This document shows positions 1,036 to 18,580 of a stretch of DNA of 64,000 nt, one piece after another. The notes beneath the pieces are model-generated. The model was given only the letters and a program-made list of their open reading frames with translations. It made no database searches and had not been told where the DNA came from. Every line of letters begins with the position of its first letter. The stretch's first letter is position 1. Origin of the DNA: Amylostereum areolatum (taxonomy: Eukaryota > Basidiomycota > Agaricomycetes > Russulales > Stereaceae); assembly GCA_012932865.1 (NCBI GenBank), contig SAXG01000127.1, forward strand, positions 1-64,000, given 5' to 3'. Both the position numbers and the translations under genes were made by a program.

Positions 1036-2226
1036 TGAAAATAAAAAATCAAAACATAAATCACCAATTATAAATAAACAAAATTTGTTTTGGTTTAATA
1101 CTAATTATAACAAATTAAAAAATATAATAATAGCGCATGCTAAATATTATATTAACAGCTTAAAACTTCGACTTATTTTTTAAAATAAGAAAAAAACTTC
1201 ATTGAGAAGTTATTACAATAAACATGAATAAAGCACTTAAAGAAATGTTAATAGGAACTCTTATGGGTGATGCACATATAGGAAGAACTGGTTTAAATAA
1301 AGCTTTTATTACTTTTGAACAATCAATAAAAAAAAGGGAATATATAAATCATTTATTTAATCAGACTGTAGAAGGTGGTATCCCAGTAATTAATAATTCA
1401 ATTAAAAATTATACTAGAACTGATTCTAGATATAATTCTACAAATGGATCTTTATATTTTAGAACTGAATATTTAGAAGATTTAAAACCTTTAGCCGATC
1501 TATTTTAGATGAAGAAGGTAAAAAAAAATACCTTCTAATATTTCTGAACTTTTGACGCACCGAGGCTTAGCATATTGAATAATGGATGATGGTCAACGAG
1601 TAGACAGAGGAGGTGTAACTTTATGCACTGATAGTTTTAATTCGGATGAAGTACAAATCCTTAGAGATTGTTTAAGTAAAAATTTTAATATGGACACTAC
1701 TATTCACAATAAAATAATTTCAAGCGGTCCAATAGAAAGAATTTATATAAATAAAAACACACTAGATAATAATAAAGCTGAATTAGTGCCACACTTCCAT
1801 GAATCAATGCTTAATAAAATAAATGTTGAAGTGGGATTTAAGCAAGATACCTCCGATATAGAAAGTGACATCACCGAAATGGATAATCCTTTAGGTTTAT
1901 TTGAAGAATAATTTGTGTAATTTATACGCATATATTTTTGACATCGGGGAATTTAATAGAAATATTAACTTAGAAGTTGGCTATATGCTGGAATCCCCTT
2001 AGAGCTTTAAATACTATATAAAAAAGTAAAAATTTTAAAGATTGGGCAATCAGCAGGGAAGTTAATTATTTTGTTTTAAGTTATAGCTAACTAAAAATAT
2101 TTAACCCCTCAACGACTACACGCCAACATCCAGAGCTATATAAGTTGTTCTCTTTATACTGGATGAAGATATAGTCTAAACTTAACTGAAAAGTTAAGAA
2201 TATTAGTTTTTAACTAATATATATTG
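1036..2226 (+). mobile_element. Intron in rnl (probable group I, site near E. coli L2500)
   Basis: The LSU core reads ggcacct, is interrupted, then resumes with cgatgtcgactcatcc at 2227. Removing 1036-2226 restores the universally conserved sequence exactly. The last exon base is U and the last intron base is G, as in group I introns, and the intron carries a LAGLIDADG reading frame, the usual partner of group I introns. I did not fold the catalytic core (P3-P8), so the group I call is by these features only. The insertion lies in the peptidyl-transferase loop, a known hot spot for fungal mitochondrial introns. Confidence 0.85.
1224..1911 (+). pseudogene. LAGLIDADG homing endonuclease ORF in the rnl intron, broken by frameshifts
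   Basis: Three segments in three frames read as one protein of the LAGLIDADG_2 type (the PF03161-like family). The first runs 1224-1505 and carries motif 1, LIGTLMGDA, near residues 9-17. The second starts at 1505 with LDEEGKKK. The third runs to the stop at 1911 and carries motif 2, AYWIMDDG, where W is a UGA codon at about 1576. The breaks fall at a four-T run (1503-1506) and a nine-A run (1520-1528); each needs one base to restore the frame. In an active enzyme the two motifs supply the catalytic acidic residues, and both are present. Either the enzyme has decayed, as is usual for resident homing genes, or the assembly has homopolymer errors; similar lesions occur in rps3 here. Confidence 0.8.
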
Positions 2227-3422: not shown

Positions 3423-4575
3423 TACGAAAAGGAGAAGAGGGGGGGGGGGAGGGGGGGGGGGGGGGGGAGGGGGTGGGTTTTCGTGCAGAGGTTGCCAGTG
3501 TCCGGCGTGAACCTCAACAGCCGAAAGGCATAAATAAAAGTAGCTTGTGTAGAAGACAATTTTGGGAAAACTACTCATCAGGAGGGGTGGAAAAGGAGGA
3601 GGGGGAGAGGGAAGAAAGAATGGAACAGGAAAAGCCAAGCACCATTCACTAAAAAGGGGGGGGGGGGGAAGGTGTAGGGTGAGAAGGAGCGAGGAAAAAA
3701 GGATGATGACGTAAAAAAAAGGTACAAGACGACATGGCTAAAGGTGGGGAAACACTCTCTGGGGCAGGGCGGGGGAAGAAGTCCGTAGATTCAAGGATGA
3801 CCAGCCATACGTGGGCGGACCGAAAGATTTTCTCGGGGTGTTCAGGGAGTAGGGGTTTATAGGTGGGGGGCCTCGTGTGAGGTGCAATGGTGGCCGGGGA
3901 CGGGTGGGGAGGAGGAAGGAAAGAAGGGAGGGAAAGACGAAACGCAGAGGGGTGAGAAGGAAACTAAGTAGGGGATTGATATGGGCACGGTGGGGGCCGC
4001 GGAAACGTAGAAGAGCGAGAAGAGGGAAAGGTTGCAGAGGGGGCTCAGGGCAAGGGGGGGGGAGGAGTGCAAGGCCGAGCGGGCGAGATTTAAAGCCGTG
4101 AAAAACTGAAAGAGAGAAAGGCGAGAACAAAGTAACTGTAAGGGGGGGGGGAGTGGGGAGGGAGGGCGTGAGTGGAGGCAGCCGCGGAGGGAGCCGAAGC
4201 CGAAAGGGAGAGGGGACAGAAGGAGAATAAAACAGAGTATAGGAGACAAAGGACACAAACAGCTAGGGGAGAGGAAAAGGTTCAAGAAGGGAGTGGCCCG
4301 GGGGACGGGGGGACCAAAAAAAAAGAGCTGAGCGGAGAAGGGGGGGGAGAGATGGGTAGGCAAGAAGGGGGGAAGGGAAGCGGGATAGGGGGGGGAAGAA
4401 GATTGGAACAGAAGTAAAGGACAGGAAAAGAAAAGGGGGTAGAGGTATGAAACTTCTTAAAAAGAGAAAGAGGTGAAATGCAGAAGCGGAGAGACACGCA
4501 GCTGGAGGGCATGCTGAAGATCAGTGGGAGGATACAAGGCATAAAAAAACGGTGGGACCCGGGCGAAGCCAAAAG
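3423..4575. other. Purine-only, G-rich island inside the AT-rich mitogenome
   Basis: For about 1.15 kb the + strand is almost entirely A and G (a sample line, 3901-3960, is about 90% purine), with G runs of 11 and 17 near 3439-3467 and further runs of 8-10 G near 3657, 4142 and 4340. The opposite strand offers long Pro/Leu/Ser-rich frames, but these are simply what a polypyrimidine strand translates to, so I call no gene. Composition changes abruptly at both ends. It could be a real polypurine tract, able to form triplex or G-quadruplex structures, or an artefact of sequencing or assembly. Confidence 0.8.
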
Positions 4576-5279
4576 GGTAGCCTAGTCGCATATAGCAAGA
4601 CCTTCGCAGTAAGAGTGGGTTTAAGGAAACTGATTAGGTCATAGGGGTGCTTCAGCGTGAAGAGCCGGCAAGCAGACCTCCCCTCATTCTGGTAGGAGGT
4701 CAGGATTAAAAATATTCTTATTGATTGTTTTAGTTGTTGTTCCTAAATAAACAAACAGATTTAATTTAAACTTTATTACGTTAGCTAATGGTTTATACAA
4801 ATAAATAATATAATTGAAAAATATTTAGGTTTATTATATTTTGTTACAATATATTGCTTTCTTGTATTTTTTTAGGTTTTAAATAAAAAGATAATTTATT
4901 TATTATATTTTACAACCTAATTATACTAGATTTTAATTATTTATTGCTAAATTTCTAAATCATAAAATCTTAAAATTATAAAGACTATAAAAAGTATTTT
5001 ATAAATAAATTTAATCACACTTAATTATTTTCTTATTAAATTAAAAGAGTATTATAAATTTTATTGTAACAATTAAATTAAAAATACCTCCATGCAGCTA
5101 ATTCATAAATAATAAAAACTTATTTATTTTTTATTTACCCTTCAAATAAATTATTAATTTATATTTTATAATTAATTAAATATTAGCTTTAATTATAACT
5201 TTTTATTTTAAAATATTAAAATAATTGTAAATAAAAATAATTTAGAAATCATTAGCAGAATTTGTAACTATATTTTAAA
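4576..5279. other. Spacer with GC hairpin, then the upstream module of orf207
   Basis: 4576-4715 is moderately GC-rich and ends in a hairpin-forming cluster (gacctcc...ggaggtc, 4675-4701). From about 5020 onward the sequence matches the region upstream of cox3 and is listed separately. No gene of its own is seen. Confidence 0.6.
4675..4701. repeat. GC-cluster hairpin (copy 1)
   Basis: The palindromic arms gacctcc and ggaggtc enclose cctcattctggta. A related sequence in opposite orientation lies near 15,307-15,331 (cctcctaccagaatgaaggtagg), and another near 6281-6306 (ccctcctacaagaatgaggga). Dispersed GC-rich hairpins of this kind are known in fungal mtDNA as GC clusters or double-hairpin elements. 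Confidence 0.6.
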
Positions 5280-5327
5280 GTGACATCTCTAAAAATTAAC
5301 AGAAATCAATATCAGTCTTTCCCTAAA
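5020..5327 (+). repeat. cox3 5' module, copy 1 (in front of orf207)
   Basis: From acctccatgcagctaatt (about 5088) through the first 15 codons this is nearly the same as 6778-7010 in front of cox3. The 46 bases from the GTG start to tctttccct are identical. The weaker upstream match extends to about 5020. After codon 15 the two copies part completely. Confidence 0.9.
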
Positions 5328-5900
5328 TGTATAGGGGATAATGCAACATTAAATAATTCATTTCATAATAGTACTTTGCTTCAAGTACCATTTAAATCTA
5401 AAAACCCTTCAACTTATAAACCTTACAATTTATTAAATAAAACTTTTAATAATGCTAAGCTAGCTAACTTAAACAAAAAAGCTACAAATACTAAATCTAA
5501 ATTTATGTGAACTTTAATTGTTTTAAAAAAATTACTTAAATGGCTACTAATTTTTATTGTTTTATATTTGTTAATTCTTTATACTTATAAAATTTTATAT
5601 AAAATAAATTTTGTATTATGGGTTAAATTTATAGCAGTATTTGGTGTTTCTTTAATAATTATATTTAATCTTATTAGTATTTTAATCTTAATAAAATTTG
5701 CATTAATACCAGATAACCAAATTGAAATACCACAATATTTACCTAAAATAATCACAAATTATTTGTTAGAATTAAAAATCATTAGTAAGTTTGAAACACT
5801 AATTCTATTTATACGTATGTATATTCTTACTGTATTATTTTTATTTGTTTTATTAATATTATTTTTATTGTTTGTAACATTATTATCAATAAATATATAA
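5280..5900 (+). CDS. orf207: hybrid ORF, Cox3 N-terminus fused to unknown membrane protein
   Basis: Read with UGA as Trp (codon at 5508-5510) the frame is open from a GTG at 5280 to TAA at 5898, 206 residues. The first 15 residues ([15 protein letters not shown]) equal those of Cox3 downstream. The rest is unrelated: a Lys/Asn-rich stretch to about residue 76, then hydrophobic segments around residues 83-100, 113-143 and 175-206. The segment near residues 149-175 (QYLPK...K-I-I-SKFE) resembles the end of orf219. The start is chosen because it copies the cox3 start. I recognise no function; it may be expressed from the copied cox3 signals. A plasmid-derived or mobile-element ORF is the main alternative explanation. 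Confidence 0.72.
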
Positions 5901-6963
5901 ATTTAGTAATAAAATTGTATATAATAAATATTTAGTACTTTTTCCCCAATTGTTATTATAATAGTTATTCGGCTGCTTTTAACACTCTCAAATAAGGCAG
6001 ATTTAAATATGATTAAAAATTTATATAAATAAGTCAAATTTAAGTTATAATATTTTATGATCATTTTAAAGGGAATTAAAAAGAAAGTAGCTGTTAAATA
6101 TTTACCTAAGTATAAAATAATATTTTATTAAATTTAAAACACTAAATTGGTAACTAATATAAAAATTTTATCTAAATAACAGAGTTAAAGGTTGGGTTTC
6201 TATAATTAACAAAATAGATAAAGTTAAACAACTTTTATTTTAAAGAGCTTGTGCTGCTACAGTAATTATTTTATTTTTGCCCTCCTACAAGAATGAGGGA
6301 AGGTAGATTTATATTTTTAAAAAGTGTTAAATTTAGATATTTTGTTAGCTTGATTAAAAAAAAGTATTAATTAAAAACTAATAAAATTTATAAATTAGTT
6401 ATTGTAAAGTTAATTTTGTTCAAATAAATAAAAAAGGGGATATTGTATAAATTTATTAAGCTATAAATTGGAAATAATAAATGTTTTATTTGGTTAAATA
6501 ATTTTAACTCTAACTAACTAAACTATATTTTCATAGGATTAATTAAAAAATATTTTATAATTTTACAACCTATAATTTGTTTAAATTTTATTTAACGTTA
6601 GATTTTTATTAAATGTTAATTATAATATTTTATTTCTTATTACTTTATATAAAGGAGGATTTAAAAATTTGTAATGCATTTGCGCCTTATATTAAATAAT
6701 TTTATTAAATTCAAAATTGTTTTATTAAAAGAGTAATATAATTTAATTTTATTTTTATTACAAAATAATTTTACATTTTACCTCCATGCAGCTAATTTAT
6801 AAATAATAAAAACTTATTTATTCTTTATTTACCCTTCAAATAAATTATTAATTTATATTTTATAATTCTAATAAATTATAACTTTTTATTTTAAAATATT
6901 AAAATAATTGTAAATAAAAATAATTTAGAAATCATTAGCAGAATTTGTAACTAATTTATAAAA
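5901..6963. other. Intergenic region ending in cox3 5' module
   Basis: AT-rich spacer with a GC cluster near 6281-6306. The last ~190 bases are the second copy of the cox3 upstream module. No gene is seen. Confidence 0.6.
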
Positions 6964-7010
6964 GTGACATCTCTAAAAATTAACAGAAATCAATATCAGT
7001 CTTTCCCTTA
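6778..7010 (+). repeat. cox3 5' module, copy 2 (native cox3 start)
   Basis: This is the partner of the copy ending at 5327. The two differ by small indels and substitutions upstream (for example the spacing around 6868-6880) but are identical over the first 46 coding bases. The divergence upstream shows the duplication is not a recent assembly echo. Confidence 0.9.
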
Positions 7011-7782
7011 TCATTTAGTGGATCCTTCACCTTGGCCTATACTAGTTAGTTTCTCATTATTAAGTTTAATGTTAGGAGCTGTTATGTATATGCAAGGTTT
7101 TCCTTATGGAAATTATTTATTAAGTTTAGGTTTTACTTTAACTTTATTTTCTATGTCTCTATGATTTAGAGATGTAACAACAGAAGGTACCTATTTAGGT
7201 AACCATACAACTCAAGTTCAAAAAGGATTAACTTTAGGTATCGTTTTATTTATAATAAGTGAAGTATTCGCTTTTTTAAGTGTATTCTGAGCTTTCTTCC
7301 ATTCTAGTTTATCTCCAGCAGTTGAAATAGGTGGAAGTTGACCACCTTTAGGTATAACACCTTTAGATCCTTTTGCTATTCCATTATTAAATACAATTTT
7401 ATTATTATCTAGTGGTGCTTTTGTTACTTATGGTCATCATGCTTTAATCCAAGGAGATAGAAAAGGAGCCATATTAGGAACATTATTAACTATAATTTTT
7501 GCTGTAATATTTACAGCTTTACAATATTATGAATATTCAGAATCTAGTTTTACAATAAGTGATTCTGTATATGGAACAGTATTTTATGCTAGTACCGGAT
7601 TACATGGATTACATGTTATAATAGGAACAATATTTATTTTAGTAGGTTTCATTAGAATAGTTAATTATCATTTAACAGATACTCATCATCAAGGACATGA
7701 AGCTGCTATATTATATTGGCATTTTGTAGATGTTGTTTGATTATTTTTATTCATTGCAGTATATTATTGAGGTGGAAATTAG
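6964..7782 (+). CDS. cox3: Cytochrome c oxidase subunit 3
   Basis: The 272-residue protein has the usual length and text of fungal Cox3: [11 protein letters not shown] near the N-terminus, then [16 protein letters not shown], and the C-terminal block with [16 protein letters not shown]. It is a core subunit of complex IV in the inner mitochondrial membrane, with seven predicted helices. Several Trp codons are UGA (for example 7162, 7288), proving code 4. The start is GTG at 6964; no ATG precedes it in frame nearby, and the same GTG is conserved in the duplicated copy. Stop is TAG at 7780. The gene is intact. Confidence 0.97.
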
Positions 7783-8087
7783 AAATAATTAATATGTATA
7801 TAAATATGTATATGTTTATATTATATAATTTTATATTTAAACCTATAAGCCTAATTAGAAATATTTTAATAATAATATTATTAGATCTTTTTAATAAAGT
7901 TTGATATCTCTTAAATAGATACACTATTTATTTATATATATTAACATCTATAAAAAATAAAACACAAGTCGGCAATAAATTAATAATATATTTAATTATA
8001 TTCATAAATATATATGAACCAAAGATCAGATTTATCTTATCATTTATATATTTTTTTATTTTTATTTTTATAAATTTTATTATTATA
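7783..8087. other. AT-rich spacer
   Basis: Low-complexity AT sequence. Short open stretches (for example from 8013) are too short and too simple to call. Confidence 0.5.
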
Positions 8088-8374
8088 ATGTGTGATTATG
8101 TTAATATTTTTCCTTTAGTGGATAACTTTTTAAATTATTTTTTTATTTAAGTTGTCCTTTAGATGAACAAATACTATTTTCTGATTTTAAAGAAGATCTC
8201 CCTTTAAATATTAGTCAACCTTATGATTGAAAAAAAAATAAATTCTTTTTAAGTAATGATTATCTTAGAGGTGAAGAAACTTGAAATTCTAATAATTCTA
8301 ATTTACCTATGGATCCTAATACTAATAATGACAATTCCTTAGGTATAATATCCTCCTCCCAAATAACAGAAGAA

Positions 8375-8413
<39 letters not shown>

Positions 8414-8800
8414 TCTAATAATACTAATAATTCTAATAGTTCTAATTTAAGTCAAAGCAATAAAGAAGAAAATAATAATAATAATAAAGATCTAAAAGAT
8501 TCTTATTTTAAAAGAGAACAATAGTATTTAGGTTGATCTTTATTTTCTGATCCTGGAGGAAGAGTATTTATGCCACCTTATTTAGATTCTAATTTAAATT
8601 CCTGTTTTTTTACAGATAATGGTGATTTATTTATTCCAGGTCAAGCTTATGGGTTTTTTGGAGAACATCTTGTTTTTGAAGATTCCGATGGTAATATTAT
8701 TCCTAATTCTAAAATTAAAATTAATAATAGACCAGAAAGATTCACCGGAACAGTTTATGGCCCTCCTTATAGTCCTTTTTCTAAACCACCCTCAGAATAA
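8088..8800 (+). pseudogene. Asn-rich ORF of unknown function, broken by a frameshift and an in-frame TAG
   Basis: An ATG at 8088 begins MCDYVNIFPLVDNFLNYFF, then the frame fails in a seven-T run (8138-8144); one more T would join it to the open frame that follows (YLSCPLDEQ). That frame continues, with UGA as Trp, through a poly-Asn stretch coded by AAT repeats (about 8374-8413 and 8469-8486) to a TAG at 8522-8524. It then stays open in the same frame to TAA at 8798 (SDPGGRVFMPPYLD... ending SKPPSE). The segment after the TAG has ordinary, non-repetitive composition, so it looks like real coding sequence. I do not recognise the protein. Confidence 0.5.
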
Positions 8801-9540
8801 AAAAAAATCTCTTCTTTACAGTTAATACAAGAGAATCTTTAGATTAAAAAACAAATTTTATTATTAACTTAAAAAAGTATAATAGTATTTTAAAAATATT
8901 AATTATATTCTATTTAGGTAAAATCTCTTTAATTTGAAGTCTTGTATTATTTATTAAAATAAATTTTAATTATTATATTATTTTTTTCTTATTTTAGAAG
9001 ACTAAAACTTTATAAAAATAAAGCTGTAAAATTATTATTTTTTTATTATAATATTTTATTATTATCTTAACTTGAAAAAAAAGGACCAAATTAATAAATA
9101 TATTAAATATATTAACTATATTAAATTTATTAATTTTTTATTATTTATAAAATAATTTTACTATAGCTAGCTTTTCTTTTTTAAGATTACTTATATTAAT
9201 TTATAAAAGTCTTTATTTTATAAAATGCTAGTAATTTTCCCCCTTCTCCTTACATATTTTAATATTAAAACTTTTAATAAAAGGAATGGAACTGTGTAAG
9301 TATAAAAAAATTTATAAATAATAAACTACCTTCTCTCTTAGCCCTCGTCCTAGCTATTATTGTTTAACAACACTAAATTTATAGACAATACCCTGAATCA
9401 AAGTAACTATTTAGTCTTAAGGCTTTATGTTTCCTCAGATTAAGAAATGTCAAATAACAAATTTAAACCTAAACCTTAAAAGGTGGAGAGAGGTAACAAT
9501 TAATACAGGTATCCAAAAGGATTTACATTTATATGAAATT
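8801..9540. other. Spacer upstream of nad4L
   Basis: AT-rich sequence without a recognisable gene. An in-frame extension of nad4L back to 9427 is open but carries no nad4L-like residues, so I treat it as leader. Confidence 0.6.
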
Positions 9541-9807
9541 ATGAATCTATCTTTATTTTTATTTTTAATAGGAATATTAGGGTTTATTTTAAACCGAAAA
9601 AATATAATATTAATGATTATAGCAATAGAAATTATGTTACTTGCTGTAACTTTACTAGTATTAATATCTAGTTTCAGTTTTGATGATGGTATAGGACAAA
9701 TATTTAGTATATTTATTATATCATTAGCAGGAGCCGAATCAGTAATAGGTTTAAGTATACTTGTAGCTTTTTATCGATTAAGAGGAAATATTTCTTTAAC
9801 AACATAA
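9541..9807 (+). CDS. nad4L: NADH dehydrogenase subunit 4L
   Basis: The 88-residue product has three hydrophobic helices and the expected text (LNRKNIILMIIAIEIMLLAV, then AGAESVIGLSILVAFYR). The Glu in IAIEIML is the conserved membrane Glu of the proton-pumping arm of complex I. The start at 9541 gives the family's standard length; the ATG at 9427 would add a 38-residue leader. nad5 follows after 14 bases, the usual nad4L-nad5 pairing in fungi, so the two are probably co-transcribed. Confidence 0.95.
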   Translation: MNLSLFLFLIGILGFILNRKNIILMIIAIEIMLLAVTLLVLISSFSFDDGIGQIFSIFIISLAGAESVIGLSILVAFYRLRGNISLTT

Positions 9808-9821
9808 CTTTTTATTAATCA

Positions 9822-11822
9822 ATGTATTTATCTATTTTAATTTTACCTTTTTTAGGTTCTTTTGTATCAGGTTTTATGGGTAGAAAAATAGGAGTAAGTG
9901 GTGCTCATTTTATAACATGTACTTGCTTAATATTATCTTCTATATTAGCCTCTATTGCTTTCTTTGAAGTAGGTATGACCGGATCTCCAGTATATCTCTT
10001 TTTAGGTAATTGGATTGATTCTGAATATTTATCTATTTCTTGAGAATTTTTATTTGATCAATTAACTGTGTCAATGTTTATACCAGTTCTTTATATATCT
10101 TCTTTAATACATATTTTTTCTACTAATTATATGGCTGAAGATCCTCATAATCAAAGATTTTTCTCTTATTTATCTTTATTCACTTTTTTTATGTTAGTTT
10201 TAGTATCTGGAGCTAATTATTTTGTAATGTTTGTAGGTTGAGAAGGTATCGGAGTTGTTTCTTACTTACTAATTAATTTTTGATTTACAAGAATTCAAGC
10301 TAATAAAGCCGCAATACTAGCCTTAACTATGAATAGAGTAGGTGATATGGGATTAAGTATCGGATTTTTTGCTTTAGTAGCCTTATTTGGATCATTAGAT
10401 TATTCTGTTGTATTTAGTACTGTACCATTTATGAATGAAACAGCTATAACTATAATAGGTTTATTACTATTATCTGGTGCTATGGCTAAATCTGCTCAAA
10501 TTCCTTTACATTCTTGATTACCAGGGAGTATGGAAGGACCAACACCAGTATCTGCTTTAATTCACGCTGCCACACTAGTAACAGCCGGATTATATTTATT
10601 AGTACGATCATCACCCTTATTAGAATATAGTTCCACAGCTTTATTAGTAATAACTTTAGTAGGAGCTACCACAGCTTTTTTTGCCGCAACTTGTGGTTTA
10701 GTACAAAATGATTTAAAAAGAATTATAGCGTTCTCCACAATATCTCAATTAGGATATATGGTAATGGCTGTTGGATTAAGTCAATATAATGTTGCTTTAA
10801 TGCATGTAATTAATCATGCCTTTTTTAAAGCTTTATTATTTTTAGGAGCTGGAGCTGTAATACATAGTTTTGCAGATCAACAAGATGTAAGAAAATTAGG
10901 AGGATTAATAAAATTTTTACCTTTCACTTACACAGCAATGTTAGTAGGATCTTTATCTTTATTAGCAACACCTTGATTAACTGGATTCTATAGTAAAGAT
11001 TTAATAATAGAATTAGCTTATGGTAATTATAGTTTTAGTGGTACTTATGCATTTATATTAGGAAGTATAACAGCAGGTTTAACAGCCTTTTATTCTTTCC
11101 GATTAATATCATTAGTATTTTTAACTGTACCTAATGGACCAGTGAAATCTTATTTAAATTCTCATGAAGCAAGTAATTCAGTGATTATACCCTTATTTAT
11201 ATTAGCTTTATTTAGTATCTTTTTTGGATTTGTATTTTCTGATTTATTTGTAGGTATGGGTTCTGATTTTTTTGGTAATTCTTTATTTATTAAACCTAAT
11301 AATATTTCTTTAATAGAAGCTGAATTTAGTTTACCTATTATTATTAAATTATTACCTGCTTTATTCTCATTATTAGGAGCTAGTTTAGCTATCTTCTTCT
11401 ATCATAAAAATCCTTTATTTTTAATAGAATTAACTGAAAACTCTATAGGAAGAAAATTATATACTTTTTTAAATGGTAAATATTTATTTGATATAGTTTA
11501 TAATAATTTTATTATTTCTAAAGGTTTACAAGTAGGATATATTATATCTAAATTATTTGATAGAGGTATAATTGAAATGGTAGGACCTTATGGTTTATCT
11601 AATACATTCTCTAATACAGCTACAAATATTAGTAAATTAGATACTGGTATTATTACAACATATTCACTTTATATTACTTTATCTTTACTTTCTTTATTAT
11701 TTTTAGTATTTGCTCCTATTTTATTAGATACTACTGTATTACTATCATTTGGAGGAGAAATTAGATTATTTATTATATACCTAGCAGCTTTAATTTTAGT
11801 TTTAGCTCCTATCAATAAATAA
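9822..11822 (+). CDS. nad5: NADH dehydrogenase subunit 5
   Basis: Read with UGA as Trp, the frame is open for 667 codons (666 residues), the family's usual length. Diagnostic text includes [20 protein letters not shown] near 10237-10290, [14 protein letters not shown] near 10490, and [20 protein letters not shown] near 10540-10600, the conserved core of the antiporter-like subunit of complex I. Trp codons at about 10041, 10239, 10281, 10515 and 10974 are UGA. No frameshift or intron is visible. It belongs to the inner-membrane proton-pumping arm. Confidence 0.97.
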
Positions 11823-12640
11823 TTTAATAATTATATATTAAAAATGAAGTGTTAAATTGTGTTCTTAGCGGTACTTATTTAATTACTATTAATCAACCTA
11901 TCCTAGCTTTAATTTATACATTATATAATTTTATATTTTACCAATTATCCCCTATCACTCTTTGTAAGTACAAAGGAGAATTTTAATTTTAATTAAATAT
12001 TAAATATATTCTTCTCCTTTTTCCTTATAATTGTTTAAACATTTATTTTCAAATTTAATTTCATATCTTATATTTATTTTTTATTATCAATTAATTTGAT
12101 AAATAAAATACCCACATTATCTCAATTTAAAAAATTAAAACAAAATTAATAAATAATTTCTTTTTGTTTTTAATTAATTGTACACCTTGCTGCTGTTTAA
12201 GTTATAAGTATATATCAATAAACCTATTTCCAACCCTTTAGCTTAATGTGTAGCAGAGATAGAAATACTATTACAAGTTAATGCACTTATATTATTTAAT
12301 TATAATTATTTTGCATTAGCACAAACATAAATAGATTTTATATTTATTTATTAAATATTTATAATACAGATTTCCTTTATTTAAAAATATTCACTTTATA
12401 AAAAAAATATGCCACAATTAATACCTTTTTACTTTGTAAACCAATTTTCTTTTGCCTTCCTAACTTACTTGCTTTAATTTATATTTTTATCAAAATATAT
12501 TCTACCTTCTTATAACTTCCGACAATTATTACAAATTTATATTACTAAATTAAGTAATAAATAATAATGTTATGATTGCTATCGGCACAAAATTAAATTA
12601 TTAAATTTATTAATTTAAGGACCCTTTCTCATTTATTTTA
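11823..12640. other. Intergenic spacer after nad5
   Basis: AT-rich, with an inverted pair aaggagaa...ttctcctt (about 11,970-12,022) that could act as a processing hairpin. No gene is seen. Confidence 0.5.
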
Positions 12641-12720
12641 TTTTACTCGGAGGTATTATAATTAAATATATGTACAAGGAAAGGAGATTTCTCTTTTTTA
12701 GATGAAAATTATTATAAGTA

Positions 12721-12740
12721 TTTTGCCCGGAGGTATTATT
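12721..12740 (+). repeat. Dispersed 20-bp GC element (TTTTGCCCGGAGGTATTATT)
   Basis: The same 20 bases, or close variants, occur here, at 16,783-16,802 and 16,913-16,932. A shorter form (ctcggaggtattat) lies at 12,646-12,659. All are on the + strand in spacers around orf219, cox2 and orf112. Confidence 0.75.
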
Positions 12741-12791
12741 TAAACTTTTTTTGTTCTTTTTATTAGTAAATTAGATTAATTCTTTTTTTAA

Positions 12792-13020
12792 GGCTAGATC
12801 TAATGTACAATATTTACCTCTATTTATAAATTTAGAGTTTTCAAACATTAATCAAATAATTTTATTAAATGATTATGAGTCTTATATTAAAATTTATCTT
12901 AAAATAATATTTTTTTGTTTTAATTTTGTTAGTTATACAAGATATATTTTTATTGTATTTAATTTTAAACAGCTTAATAGCCATTTTTTATTTAATTTTT
13001 TATCCCCAATTTTAATTTAA
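12792..13020 (+). pseudogene. Decayed copy of the orf219 3' part
   Basis: The sequence aaggctagatctaatgtacaatatttacct, then gagttttcaaacattaatcaaataattt, parallels 13,851-13,920 of orf219. In the shared frame it reads SNINQIILLNDYESYIK against SNIKEIIKLEDYPFYIK in orf219. It has no start or upstream part, so it is a remnant of a third copy of this ORF family. Confidence 0.65.
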
Positions 13021-13070
13021 AGACAAAACTGCTCATCCTTTAAACACGTACTATAAATACAATATAATTT

Positions 13071-13385
13071 TTTAAAAGGAATACTATTTAAAAATATAAT
13101 TAAAAAAAAATTAAATTATAGTTTTAATTAGTTACAGATTTTAATATTTTATATTTTTTAAATTATATGAAATAATTTACTTAAGACGAATCTTATGGAT
13201 ACCAATTTTCTTTTGTAGCATAGCTACTATCAATGTGCAAAATTTAATATAATCTCATTGAGGAAGAAAAAGGTACTAAATTTTATATATCTCTCTTTTT
13301 AAAAAAGGTGAATACATAGATTTAATATTAAAAACTTAAGAGAGAAAATTTTTAATTACAAATGTTACAACAAATTTTAATTTTT
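13071..13385 (+). repeat. cox2 5' module, copy 1 (in front of orf219)
   Basis: From aaaaggaatactatttaaaaatataattaaa onward it matches 14,217-14,533 in front of cox2, including tttacttaag(a/g)cgaatctta and the 26 bases before the ATG (agagagaaaatttttaattacaa). The match continues for about eight codons. The copies differ by substitutions and indels in the middle. Confidence 0.88.
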
Positions 13386-14021
13386 AATACTAAAGCTTTA
13401 CATCAGAGTGGAGATAATTGAGTTCATAATTATTATAAACTTTACAAAAATACTAACAATTTTGAATCAATAACTCAAGCTCGGTTATTTAGAATTAAAG
13501 AAATTAGATCTTTCTCTCTAATTTTAGCACCCTTAATACTTTGTAATTTTTTAGTTATCGCAAATAACATAGAACTATTAAATATAAATTCTAATTCTGG
13601 ATCCTTTACAGTAAATAATTCATTATTACTATTAATAACTAAAAATTTTAAAAAATTTAAATTTATTATTTTAATTTGTTTTAGTTTAATGGTTCTATTC
13701 ACAGTTTATTTTTCAAATAATATTATTTTGTTTTATTACTTCTCATTTTGTTTTAATATTAATTTTTATAAATATTTATTAATTTTTTATAATATATATG
13801 TTCTTTTTTATTATATAATAAGATTGTTTATTTTTATAATTTTAATTTTAGAAGCTAAATATAAAGTACAATACTTACCTAAATTTATGAATAATTGATT
13901 TTCAAACATTAAGGAAATAATTAAATTAGAGGATTATCCATTTTATATTAAATTTTTTCTTATAATAATACCTTTATTCTTTTTTAGTTTGTGTTATTTT
14001 ACATATATATTTATATTATAA
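13362..14021 (+). CDS. orf219: hybrid ORF, Cox2 N-terminus fused to unknown membrane protein
   Basis: With UGA as Trp (at 13,419 and 13,896) the frame is open from ATG 13,362 to TAA 14,019: 219 residues. The first residues (MLQQILIFNT) copy Cox2 ([10 protein letters not shown]); then the sequences diverge fully. The body has hydrophobic stretches around residues 54-64, 100-160 and 195-219. The C-terminal part, QYLPKFMNNWFSNIKEIIKLE followed by a helix, resembles the end of orf207. No function is recognised. Its control region is a copy of that of cox2, so expression is plausible. It has no frameshift, unlike several other ORFs here. Confidence 0.7.
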
Positions 14022-14508
14022 AATAATACCTACGAGCACAAAGAAGCTTAATATTGTGATATTATCTTAAATCCTTTTTAAATTATTTTTAATTTATCCT
14101 AAAGGTTAAAAAAAATAAATAAAAATAATAAAACAAAATATGTTATTAAAGTTTAAATTTTTAATTTTAAAATATAAATTTAGTATATTTAATATTATAC
14201 CTAAAAATTATAAGTAGTTAAAAGGAATACTATTTAAAAATATAATTAAAACAAAAAACAAATAAACAAATTTTAATTTTAGTTTTAATTAGTTACAGAT
14301 TTTAATATTTTAGATTTAATTATTTAAAATATATGAAATAATTTACTTAAGGCGAATCTTAGGGATACCTAATTTCTTAAAATAGCACTTTGCTATTAAA
14401 AAAATATATAAAAGAAAAAGGGTACTAAATCTGCTAAATATTCCTTTTTAAAAGTGAATACACAGATTTAATAGTTAAAAAACTAAGAGAGAAAATTTTT
14501 AATTACAA
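14022..14508. other. Spacer holding the native cox2 upstream module
   Basis: The first ~190 bases are AT-rich filler. From 14,217 on it is the second copy of the cox2 5' module. Confidence 0.6.
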
Positions 14509-14533
14509 ATGTTACAACAAATTTCAATTTTTA
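14217..14533 (+). repeat. cox2 5' module, copy 2 (native)
   Basis: Partner of 13,071-13,385. It ends in the true cox2 start; after roughly codon 10 the two copies no longer match. Confidence 0.88.
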
Positions 14534-15264
14534 ATACTATTTTTAACGATGCTCCACAACCATGGCAAATCGGATTTCAAGACAGTGCTGCACCCGGATT
14601 TGCAGGTATTGTAGAATTACATAACACACTTTTCTTCTATTTAATTATAGTTTGTGTAGGTGTATTTTGAGTTTTAGGTTCAATAATGTTCTACTATAAT
14701 TCTAAAAAATCACCTATTATTCATAAATATTTAAATCACGGTACATTAATAGAATTAATTTGAACAATTACACCTGCTTTTATTTTAATTGCTATTGCAT
14801 TCCCTAGTTTTAGATTACTTTATTTATTAGATGAAGTTATTTCTCCTACTATTACTATAAAAGTAGTTGGTCATCAATGATATTGGTCATATGAATATTC
14901 AGATTATGTAACTGAAAGTGGAGAATCTATAGAATTTGATTCTTATATGATCCCTGATTCTGATTTAGAATTAGGTCAATTTAGATTATTAGATGTAGAT
15001 AATAAAGTAATTATCCCAGTTGATTGTCATATTAGACTTATTATTACTGGTGCAGATGTTATTCATTCTTTTGCTGTTCCTTCTTTAGGATTAAAAGTTG
15101 ATGCTGTACCTGGTAGATTAAATCAATCTTCTATTTTAGCTGAAAGAACTGGTACTTTTTATGGTCAATGTTCAGAAATATGTGGAGTATGACATGGATT
15201 TATGCCAATAGTAGTTGAAGCTGTATCAGTTCAAGATTATTTAGCTTGAGTAGATGCTGCCTAA
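14509..15264 (+). CDS. cox2: Cytochrome c oxidase subunit 2
   Basis: The 251-residue product has the two N-terminal helices, the [12 protein letters not shown] motif near residue 123, and the binuclear copper-A site: His in [13 protein letters not shown] and the Cys/Cys/His/Met set in [16 protein letters not shown]. It receives electrons from cytochrome c in complex IV. Trp codons include UGA (for example in VWHGF). ATG at 14,509 and TAA at 15,262 give the usual fungal length. The gene is intact and directly follows the duplicated module and orf219. Confidence 0.97.
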
Positions 15265-15939
15265 TACAAATTTAATAGTTTTACTACATTTATTTTTATA
15301 GCTACCCTCCTACCAGAATGAAGGTAGGTATTCTTTTCTTTTTGCCCGTAAGTTTTATTTTATTTATACCCTAAAGTCTTATTGTTATTAACTCCTTGTT
15401 GCTTATTAAAGGTTTTAGTACAAAGGCCTAAGTAAAATTTATGAATATAAAACGGATTAAAGAGTAGAAATAGTAAAGTGTTTCTTACTTTAGTTTATTT
15501 AAAGTCAGCAAATACCGAACCCCTTTATTTAATTACTATATTTTTTATTTTTTATTTGATATAATTAATATTAAATATTTAATTTTTTTTATATAATTTT
15601 TTATTCCCCTACGCCTTAAACCTGAGACTGGCCTTTAAAATATTATAACAATTAAAATATTAATTAAAATTAAAAGGAGAAGATATTATTTATATCTTGT
15701 TCAGTTTTATATAATAACTATATAAAATTGTTTAATATAAGGTTTATACTTTAGCAGATTCAAGAATTATTTTTAATTTAAGAATCCTAATTTTAAAACT
15801 ATTTTTGTACCTTCCTTAACTCCATTTTATATGGTGGTATAATGTGCGGGATAAAGTTTTTATTAGTACTTGTCACATTTTTGGCTTAGCCATTGACCCT
15901 TGGGCTTACACACAAATTATAAAAAAATATTAACAAACT
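15265..15939. other. Spacer with GC cluster and the rps3-like upstream module
   Basis: A GC hairpin lies near 15,307-15,331. From about 15,665 the sequence matches the region in front of rps3. No gene is seen. Confidence 0.6.
15665..15930 (+). repeat. rps3 5' module, copy 1 (in front of orf112)
   Basis: Shared words with 17,005-17,245 include atatcttgttcagttttatat, tctaatataaggttta, agcagattaagaat, aatcctaattttaaaacta, and agtttttattagtacttgtcacatttttggct. The match stops close to the start codon, so unlike cox2 and cox3 little or no coding sequence is copied. Confidence 0.85.
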
Positions 15940-16278
15940 ATGCTTAAATTATTAAAACAAAATATCATCAAGTTAAAACCAGATGAAACTACTAGCTATA
16001 AAGGTCTAACACATGGTTTTAACCTTCCTATGCTACCTCCTAAACTTAACACTTTTTATAATTCTATTATTATTAGAATATTAAGAGTTATAGGTGGAAT
16101 TTGTGTGTTATTATTCTTAACTAAAGGATATGATATATTTCCATTCGACATAAAATTTATTATACTTATTATCGCTCTGATTCAATTAATTCAAATGATT
16201 ATAATAAGTATCATTAAAACAATATACGGAATTTATATTTTAATTTATAAACCTGAATTATTTAAAGTTAGAAAGTAA
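15940..16278 (+). CDS. orf112: unknown mitochondrial membrane ORF, probably truncated
   Basis: An open frame of 112 residues begins MLKLLKQNIIKLKPDETTSY, has LTHGFNLPMLPPKL near residues 28-41, then hydrophobic segments around residues 47-65 and 70-98. I recall similar ORFs in agaricomycete mitogenomes but cannot name a function. Beyond the stop, other frames continue with plausible protein text (FNRFASHLATIIYLM from 16,281; TVGTATFWVWGLTLDAV from about 16,340, using UGA as Trp), so the ancestral protein was longer and has been cut by frameshifts or sequence errors. Its upstream region copies that of rps3. Confidence 0.65.
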   Translation: MLKLLKQNIIKLKPDETTSYKGLTHGFNLPMLPPKLNTFYNSIIIRILRVIGGICVLLFLTKGYDIFPFDIKFIILIIALIQLIQMIIISIIKTIYGIYILIYKPELFKVRK

Positions 16279-16400
16279 CATTTAATAGGTTTGCGAGCCA
16301 CCTAGCAACTATTATTTATTTAATGTAGGGTGCGTTGTTACAGTTGGAACAGCTACTTTTTGAGTTTGAGGCCTAACTCTAGATGCCGTTTTATATGTCA
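16279..16400 (+). pseudogene. Frameshifted continuation of orf112
   Basis: Two further pieces in frames 0 and 2 extend orf112 by about 40 codons. The joins fall at gaaagtaac (16,271-16,279) and at atgtaggg (16,323-16,330). The text is hydrophobic and Gly/Thr-rich with two UGA Trp codons, and ends in a TAG near 16,418. Confidence 0.5.
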
Positions 16401-17250
16401 CCCCTCTTTACTTTTAGGAAGGGTAAATATAAATAGATAAAAGGTTTTTGTTCCTATGATGAACGAAGGTTTTAATTTATATATAATCAAACTGGTTTTT
16501 TACCTCCTAAAATAAATACTGAGACTTTTAGAACTAAATAATAACCTGATTCCTTTTTTAAACAGTGAACAACAGCTTAAAATAAACTAAGCCCTTAAGA
16601 AAAAACAAACTTTTGGAAATAAGTTTCTACTAAAGAAACTAAATAATTTTCTAATAAAATATAAAGTTTATCCCCTTTCCCATATTATTTTAAAGATTAA
16701 TTTGGCAAAAAAATATTTTATCTGTTATTTGTTCATATTTTTTTATAGATCTAATGATTTAATTTTTATAAATTTATTGGATTTTTGCCCGGAGGTATTA
16801 TTAATCTTTCTTCTTATCTCTGAATATTTAATATAAAGGAGGAAAAAATATTTACGTTAAGTAAAGCATATACCTATGGTTTAAATTAACCTTAATTCTT
16901 AATCCATTTTATTTTTGCCCGGAGGTATTATTTTGTATTAATAAATATAAATTTCTATATCTTTATTCTTATTAGCTTTAAGGATAGTTCCTAATATTTA
17001 AAATATAACAAAATTAAAAGATAAGAGATATTTATTATATCTTGTTCAGTTTTATATATTAATTATATATAATTGTCTAATATAAGGTTTACACCTTAGC
17101 AGATTTAAGAATTATATTAATTATATAATTTAAAAATCCTAATTTTAAAACTAGTCTATACAGACAAAAGTTTTTATTAGTACTTGTCACATTTTTGGCT
17201 CAGCCAATGACCTTCGGGCTTAAAAATAAAACACACAAATAAAAAAAAAT
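16401..17250. other. Spacer with two 20-bp GC elements and the native rps3 upstream module
   Basis: Contains the TTTTGCCCGGAGGTATTATT element at 16,783-16,802 and 16,913-16,932, and the second copy of the rps3 upstream module at about 17,005-17,245. No gene is seen. Confidence 0.65.
17005..17245 (+). repeat. rps3 5' module, copy 2 (native)
   Basis: Partner of 15,665-15,930; see the shared words there. It ends just before the rps3 ATG. Confidence 0.85.
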
Positions 17251-18580
17251 ATGAATAATTTAAACAACACCCCACAATTAACAGTAAGTCCCTTAATAGG
17301 TACTTCCTTACAAAATAAAAATATTTCTTCACAATTAACAGATTTTTCTTTAGAATCAATAATAGAATTACAAAAAGAAATAGGTAATAAAAAAGAAATA
17401 TCAAATAAACAATTTAAAAAAAGAATAAATGCTTTTTTAGATAATAATAATAATATAACTTTTTGATAATTTAATACAACAAGAATCCGTAGGTTTACAA
17501 AATTCTAATAATTTAATGAGAAAAGTTTTTAAAGGTATAGTAATAGAAAATATAAATAAAAAAATCTTATCTCCCAAATTACAAGCTTTAACACAAATCA
17601 CTAACTCATCACAGTCAACAGAAATAAATAAATTAATACAAAAATCAGCAGTAACAAACCTAAATGATAAAAACATTGAAGAAACATTTAACACCAAAGA
17701 AATAATAATGAGTAAAAGCAAATTAATTAAATCAATAACACTATTTAATTCTACGTTTGCTTCAAATAATACTATAATGTATAATTTTAATAAACAAAAT
17801 AATAAAAATATTTCTGGTAGTGTTAATAATATTTATTCTATTTTAGAAGCATCATTTTTAACAATGTCTAGTTTAATTAGTAAACCTATTTTATTAGTTC
17901 AGCCTAATGCTATTAAAATTCATTTATTTTTTTATTGAAAACCATTAAAAAAAAGTTTTAATAAATCTAAAATTAACTCTAAATTTTTAATTTTAAATAA
18001 AAATAAATTACAAAATTTAATTGGAATATTAAGTAAATTCTTTAATAAACCTGTTGAATTAGATATAACTAGATTATATTATCCACATTTTGATAGTAAT
18101 ATTTTAGCTAATTTTATAGGTTTAATTAGTAATATTTTTAAATTAAGATTCATTAATGCGAGATTATTTTTAAAAGCTAAAATTAAAAATCCTAATAAAA
18201 GAAGTAAACAAATTAGAAATAGATTAATTCCTTCTTTCCTTTCGGGTATTAATATTAAATCAAGGAAGAATTATGGCTAAAAGAACTAAAAATAGAATTA
18301 AATCTAAAACAATTCAAAGAGGAAGTTTAGCTAGAACTAAAACAAATTTAATTACAACATCTAGATTTACTAATAAAAANNNNNNNNNNNNNNNNNNNNN
18401 NNNNNNNNNNNNNNNNNNNNNNNNNNNNNNNNNNNNNNNNNNNNNNNNNNNNNNNNNNNNNNNNNNNNNNNNNNNNNNNNNNNNNNNNNNNNNNNNNNNN
18501 NNNNNNNNNNNNNNNNNNNNNNNNNNNNNNCTGGTACATTTAGTATAACTGTAAAAACTGGACATCTAATATTAGATTAA
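17251..18580 (+). CDS. rps3: Mitochondrial ribosomal protein S3, with frameshifts and an assembly gap
   Basis: The protein shows fungal mitochondrial RPS3 hallmarks: PVELDITRLYYPHFDSN near 18,052, IPSFLSGINIK near 18,230, RGSLARTKTN near 18,320, and after the gap GTFSITVKTGHLILD ending in TAA at 18,578. It is a small-subunit ribosomal protein. Two one-base insertions break the frame: in the T5 run 17,460-17,464 (four T would join ITF to DNLIQQESVG) and near 18,257-18,263 (removing a base joins GINIK to QGRIMAKRTK). The N run (18,380-18,530) falls between TSRFTNK and GTFSITV, sites normally only a few residues apart. I consider the gene probably intact in the organism. Confidence 0.88.
18380..18530. 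other. Assembly gap (151 N) inside rps3
   Basis: All bases are N. The flanking rps3 fragments are expected to be almost adjacent, so the gap length is an estimate or placeholder. Confidence 0.98.

Follow-up and report, generated by a model that had tools for sequence, protein, structure and literature searches.

A second copy of their 5' ends, leading into small hydrophobic open reading frames, precedes cox3, cox2 and rps3 in a fungal mitochondrial DNA

Why should a mitochondrial core gene be preceded by a second copy of its own 5' region, and why should that copy lead into a different open reading frame (ORF)? The question is raised by cox3, cox2 and rps3 in the first 64,000 nucleotides of contig SAXG01000127.1, the stretch analyzed here as the window, which is the start of contig C31 in an assembly of 57.1 Mb and 182 contigs. 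Bases 1 to about 18,650 of the window are mitochondrial DNA (mtDNA) with the genes for large-subunit (LSU) rRNA, cox3, nad4L, nad5, cox2 and rps3. The gene content, the use of TGA as a tryptophan codon and the VAR1-type rps3 point to a fungal host. A sequence-only reading of the window had claimed that the upstream regions of the three genes are duplicated on one strand and that each duplicate leads into an unrelated hydrophobic ORF, which would so capture the expression signals of its host gene.

Comparison of the window with itself showed the 5' regions of cox3, cox2 and rps3 each twice, as direct repeats on one strand (Table 1). At every locus the first copy (module a) leads into a hydrophobic ORF and the second (module b) into the core gene. 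Local alignments of regions slightly wider than the modules gave 88-90% identity over ungapped aligned columns and scores 46-48 standard deviations above 200 shuffles each: 488 of 555 ungapped columns are identical for cox3 (score 444, shuffle maximum 79.5), 317 of 352 for cox2 (369, shuffle maximum 66) and 235 of 262 for rps3 (242, shuffle maximum 53.5). With blastn the identities were 87%, 78% and 71%, respectively. Both modules of the cox3 pair were present in three contigs (the window, C151 and C178) and both modules of the cox2 and rps3 pairs in four (the same three and C85), recurring at 96-100% identity; a stretch in C140 has cox3 module a alone. The claimed duplication is thus upheld by alignment score and by recurrence in three to four contigs. 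The length first estimated was about 230-320 bp; the aligned modules measure about 285 bp for cox3, about 330 bp for cox2 and 267-291 bp for rps3. Two proposed extensions were rejected as lying within the null range: sequence common to the regions ahead of the modules, and a third module at cox2 in front of a decayed ORF end there.

The cox3 and cox2 modules reach into the coding sequence. The GTG start and first 15 codons of cox3 are identical between copies a and b, though their flanks differ, and the ATG and first 10 codons of cox2 show one change, so that the hybrids of 10-15 codons predicted earlier were found in the alignments as 15 and 10 codons. Copy a of rps3 stops around the start codon, where ATG has become ATT, and hence contributes a leader only. 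As the rps3 repeat ends at this point, hybrids exist at two of the three loci (cox3 and cox2). The ATG of orf112 lies 11 nt past the rps3 start position and is out of phase with rps3. The expectation that each copy leads into a hydrophobic ORF was therefore correct, whereas the rps3 copy does so without a working start codon. Intact frames were found in three of four contig copies for orf207, two of four for orf219 and four of four for orf112. Because cox2 itself is intact in just two of four copies (a noisy copy in contig C93 excluded), the broken ORF frames look like assembly indels. For rps3, C151 and C85 have an intact frame of 396 aa, whereas it is broken in the window and in C178.

The longest open frame in simulated non-coding mtDNA (200 simulations of 12 kb) had 126 codons, which orf207 and orf219 exceed; orf112, with 112 codons, is shorter. 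The hydrophobic or transmembrane segments of the three proteins were called from hydropathy alone. At E<=1, Pfam returned no family for orf207 and orf219 and just two unrelated sub-cutoff matches for orf112; no LAGLIDADG or GIY-YIG endonuclease domain was found in any of the three at this threshold, in line with the earlier statement that they are not recognizable endonucleases. The AlphaFold model of orf207 (mean pLDDT 59, helical after residue 48) was too poor for a fold search. The view that all ORFs are unrelated had to be given up: orf207 and orf219 have about 145 C-terminal residues in common, in diverged form (score 133, z 6.9, reached by 0 of 300 shuffles), and BLASTP aligned 49 residues at 33% identity (E 3e-4). 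A decayed copy of the orf219 3' end lies upstream of cox2 module a and, read as protein, scores z 9.4 against orf219. Relatives elsewhere, which the sequence-only reading had proposed to look for, were found for orf112, in the form of two uncharacterized, unnamed database proteins with 50-51% identity; a search with orf219 yielded no relatives and one with the orf207-orf219 alignment no match at E<=1. Scans of viral contigs with cox2, the plasmid polymerase and orf112 as queries gave no match.

We compared the starts of eight ORFs or copies with those of 12 core genes (the nad1, cob and atp8 leaders being left out), and six of the 96 pairs stood out with z 9.3-47.9, the next highest value being 3.6 and the largest in a core-against-core control 4.5. 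These pairs are cox3-orf207, cox2-orf219, rps3-orf112, nad2-copy A, nad2-copy C and nad3-orf319. Four of the cases are tandem, namely cox3, cox2, rps3 and nad2 copy A, and in each of them the ORF bears the 5' end of just one of the 12 genes, the one directly downstream. Since these ORFs carry the start of their own downstream neighbor, a local event seems more likely than long-range shuffling. An ORF after cox3 and orf126 matched none of the 12 core-gene starts. Homology of the orf319 start to nad3 was rejected: its z of 9.3 is mainly due to the nad2 end (0 of 500 shuffles), and the score of the nad3 start alone was reached by 23 of 500 shuffles.

With nad2, further cases support the earlier proposal of a repeated process. 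The start of this gene is present three times in the same mtDNA (contigs C85, C80, C140 and C178). Copy A lies directly before nad2 and consists of 16 nt of leader and about 70 codons that run in frame into another ORF; it is identical in all three contigs read (C85, C80 and C140) and changes frame once, which may reflect an assembly error or decay. Copy C (C178) comprises a 5' part and a short 3' end, about 400 codons between them being missing, and its stop lies 3 nt before orf319. The nad2 copies have 9, 10 and 10 private differences, and a 6-base gap is common to A and C; they cannot be ordered because there is no DNA outgroup, and the best fungal-type Nad2 chain in the alignment, PDB 7zm7, was rejected as too distant for that role. 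A second family of mutually related ORFs (z 7.1-10.2) consists of orf319, orf126 and the ORF of copy A, whose two frames had been joined before the comparison. Fragments of a plasmid-type (type-B organellar) DNA polymerase lie about 0.8 kb from orf126, and a long ORF for a plasmid-type DNA polymerase B is found elsewhere in the mtDNA on the opposite strand; no DNA_pol_B_2 ORF was found next to orf207, orf219 or orf112. Plausibly, the nad2-linked ORFs have a plasmid-linked origin; for orf207, orf219 and orf112 such an origin is unproven.

Table 1. Positions of the duplicated 5' modules, the ORFs and core genes that follow them, and the plasmid-type polymerase (window coordinates unless a locus is named)
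Feature	Position	Strand	Remarks
cox3 5' module a	5040..5324	+	Leader, GTG start and first 15 codons; into orf207
orf207 (206 aa)	5280..5900	+	15 cox3 codons fused to hydrophobic protein, 3 hydrophobic segments
cox3 5' module b	6724..7008	+	Before cox3
cox3 (272 aa)	6964..7782	+	Pfam PF00510, 386 bits
Decayed copy of orf219 3' end	12777..12957	+	77% to 13837-14020; upstream of cox2 module a
cox2 5' module a	13063..13392	+	Leader, ATG and 10 codons; into orf219
orf219 (219 aa)	13362..14021	+	10 cox2 codons fused to hydrophobic protein, 4 hydrophobic segments
cox2 5' module b	14209..14539	+	Before cox2
cox2 (251 aa)	14509..15264	+	Pfam PF00116, PF02790
rps3 5' module a	15646..15936	+	Leader only; rps3 start position reads ATT
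orf112 (112 aa)	15940..16278	+	Own ATG; 2 hydrophobic segments
rps3 5' module b	16992..17258	+	Before rps3
rps3	17251..18548, end approximate	+	VAR1 match; N run at 18380-18530
DNA polymerase B (DNA_pol_B_2) ORF and separate fragments	L032 7424-10000 and L039 3200-4439

Given these findings, we propose, with confidence evenly balanced, that small membrane-protein genes were repeatedly placed at the 5' ends of core genes or just inside them, a second 5' end being left or brought in. The resulting order would be 5' module a, ORF, 5' module b, core gene, and could have arisen by repeated local insertions at gene starts that also supplied a second 5' end, or by tandem duplication. Module b would keep the core gene functional; module a would provide the ORF with the leader of a core gene and, at cox3, cox2 and nad2, also with a start codon and N-terminal codons, so that the ORF might be expressed through the copied signals. 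Such expression is plausible because the translation of yeast COX2 and COX3 is controlled through their 5' untranslated regions (PMC3978653; here and below, cited papers are compared through passages of their text). The cox2 locus appears to be iterated, and its order of decayed ORF end, module a, orf219, module b and cox2 suggests that the event happened there twice. We also considered a further-reaching version, namely that selfish membrane-protein genes settle at core-gene starts and seize the leader and initiation signals, that the selfish protein is then made at the inner membrane with the help of the host's gene-specific translational activators and that the host gene is spared by its second 5' end; we regard this version as unlikely.

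Several results weigh against the proposal, above all against its functional part. The capture of promoter, leader and translation signals, as put forward by the sequence-only reading, gained no support. RNA folding of eight module pieces (both copies each of two pieces of cox3, one of rps3 and the last 150 nt of the cox2 module) stayed within the shuffle range, with a best z of -1.39 and 18 of 200 shuffles as good. Clustering of conserved blocks was clear for cox3 only (p 0.0015, three longest runs), weak for cox2 (0.03) and absent for rps3 (0.16). In yeast, the region through which the COX3 activators act lies 480-330 nt before the start (PMC3978653), beyond the 240 nt of leader in the cox3 module. 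As to the modules and ORFs, similarity beyond the module borders did not exceed the null range at any of the three loci. Between orf207 and the decayed end before cox2 module a no similarity was detectable (z 0.3), and the differences of that end from orf219 have no codon-position bias (11, 12 and 10 over the three positions). The nad2 copies appear unconstrained as Nad2 protein (dN/dS 2.00, 0.63 and 0.73). No relatives of orf207 and orf219 were found in word-limited database searches, and their similarity to the polymerase-linked family of orf319, orf126 and the copy-A ORF was not significant (z at most 1.7). A fold common to the leaders, considered separately as a candidate, was rejected, none being found among the eight module pieces.

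Some of these results could belong to neutral relics, produced when local tandem duplications in a recombining, plasmid-invaded mtDNA joined pre-existing ORFs, the ORFs now decaying and the copied signals idle. We consider this explanation possible, if on the doubtful side. It would accommodate the unconstrained nad2 copies, the even spread of differences over codon positions in the orf219 repeat and the decayed ORF end, whose place ahead of cox2 module a repeats that of orf219 ahead of module b; moreover, fungal mtDNA is reported to contain truncated gene copies, among them partial nad2 and truncated atp9 copies (PMC5626475, PMC6506933), and a duplicated cox2 C-terminus has also been described (PMC4019555). 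It has greater difficulty with the open frames of orf207 and orf219, which extend past the simulated maximum, with the identity of the cox3 start and 15 codons in both copies while the flanks differ, and with the recurrence of the association at four genes.

Alternatively, the loci could be relics of homing elements. Such elements would either have carried a host 5' end and an endonuclease gene, which was later lost or replaced, or have been moved by an endonuclease encoded elsewhere. The logic would be that of the mobile ORFs of Allomyces (atp6) and Glomus (atp6, atp9, cox2 and nad3), which duplicate gene 3' ends and come with endonucleases (PMC3630166). The likeness to these systems, noted by the sequence-only reading, stands as far as gene-end duplication goes: an ORF at a core gene lies between two diverged copies of one gene end, hybrids are formed and several genes of one mtDNA are affected. 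It does not extend to the end concerned. In Allomyces and Glomus the 3' end, the gene part downstream of the insertion, is copied together with a LAGLIDADG or GIY-YIG ORF, whereas at cox3, cox2, rps3 and nad2 copy A it is the upstream 5' part that is copied, and none of the three ORFs in the window gave an endonuclease domain at E<=1. In nad2 copy C a short 3' end is retained as well. Since the 3' part is duplicated there, the present loci are a mirror image of those cases and not identical to them. Tremella offers elements in which host coding sequence is copied in five genes of one species, along with truncated nad2 and nad3 copies (PMC7315562). The inserted element there bears a copy of host-gene coding sequence, as the putative insertions in the mtDNA studied here would. 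The copied segment resembles the following exon and is named an 'N-terminal duplication' by the authors; in our reading it is the gene part that follows the insertion, unlike the present copies, whereas the authors' label at face value would make Tremella the nearer precedent. A leader copy is not described in the available text of that paper, and no intron was found at the present ORF loci: a permissive Rfam scan of window positions 4900-17400 gave 0 matches at E<=1. The scan was repeated permissively because the fast Rfam scan had missed the intron of the LSU rRNA gene, which the permissive setting recovers. A LAGLIDADG endonuclease ORF does exist in this mtDNA, at that intron, and would favor the homing explanation, which we nevertheless judge improbable. 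The intron itself is of group I and occupies window positions 1098-2226 (core 1928-2198, 77 bits in the permissive scan); in contig C178 its endonuclease ORF encodes 229 aa.

That the second modules stem from a noisy read copy or a mis-join is scarcely credible, as the modules occur in three to four contigs at 96-100% identity beside intact frames and the noisy mtDNA that does exist in this assembly (the purine-rich stretch and the C93 copy described below) has a shifted base composition and, in C93, neither a cox2 nor an orf219 frame that survives; we therefore rejected an artefact for the modules, although such artefacts lie nearby and the contigs are not fully independent because they may share reads.

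The assembly shows these irregularities in several places. Many other contigs hold the same mtDNA, mostly at 96-100% identity and often near contig ends, and it is joined to other DNA or lies at contig ends in the window (at about 18650) and in contigs C151, C178, C85 and C140. Beyond about 18,650 the window DNA has 51-71% GC. Because the same mtDNA recurs in many contigs, often towards their ends, the join at about 18650 is probably a chimeric contig end. Window positions 3426-4675 are purine-rich (G 43%, T 12%), and the AT-rich mtDNA that takes their place in C140 (T 40%, G 13%) spans about 1.0 kb; the window stretch looks like read noise. Contig C93 (L026, 10 kb) combines 1.7 kb of near-exact mtDNA with an inverted, C-enriched copy of the nad5-cox2 region that is 71% identical and has lost its frames. 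C93 was also considered as a related but diverged version of the orf219-cox2 region and rejected; this inverted copy is probably a noisy chimeric read.

Three further features of the mtDNA are recorded here in their own right. The 15-base element CCCGGAGGTATTATT is found exactly at three intergenic sites of the window (12726, 16788 and 16918), with 0 expected. The ORF 3' of cox3 (about 7790-8800) encodes an asparagine-rich repeat and has 243 aa in C178 and an interrupted frame in the window. In C151, a hydrophobic open frame of 333 codons follows cox1 (L040, about 5019-6020) and overlaps the cox1 3' end in another frame; it does not clearly resemble any of the other ORFs (z at most 1.8).

Membrane-protein ORFs are not foreign to the mtDNA of Agaricomycetes. 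Heterobasidion contains plasmid-linked membrane ncORFs and a partial nad2 in a region of two such ORFs (PMC4201751). The likeness would lie in ORFs with transmembrane segments, here predicted from hydropathy, in an mtDNA that has plasmid DNA-polymerase genes, here found away from orf207, orf219 and orf112. The ncORF definition asks for at least 420 bp and no characterized relatives; orf207 and orf219 are long enough and orf112 is shorter. Copied core-gene 5' modules are not described in the passages of that paper at hand. The listings of searches of the open-access literature, with subscription papers mostly outside their reach, likewise gave no paper on copied 5' leaders before ORFs in fungal mtDNA. 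We file the loci as a 5'-end counterpart of the gene-end-duplicating insertions, with membrane-protein ORFs. A comparison with plants also suggests itself: in the chimeric ORFs of cytoplasmic male sterility (CMS), part of a respiratory gene is joined to an unknown, often membrane-bound ORF. Fusion of a respiratory-gene 5' region and start to an unknown ORF is what we see in orf207 and orf219, not in orf112. CMS genes arise by long-range recombination and have a phenotype; here, in contrast, the copy adjoins its source in four of five cases.

If the ORFs are expressed, the loci would be natural experiments in which a mitochondrial leader was moved onto a foreign ORF, and the parts kept by both diverged copies would point to what a leader requires. 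They would then also show how selfish mitochondrial genes gain expression signals, and that gene-end duplication is possible from the 5' side. If the ORFs are not expressed, the loci would still account for one way in which truncated gene copies arise and mtDNA annotation can be misled. Should the selfish-gene version prove true, these loci would be a fungal, local and repeated counterpart of the plant CMS genes and the 5' mirror of the mobile-ORF strategy.

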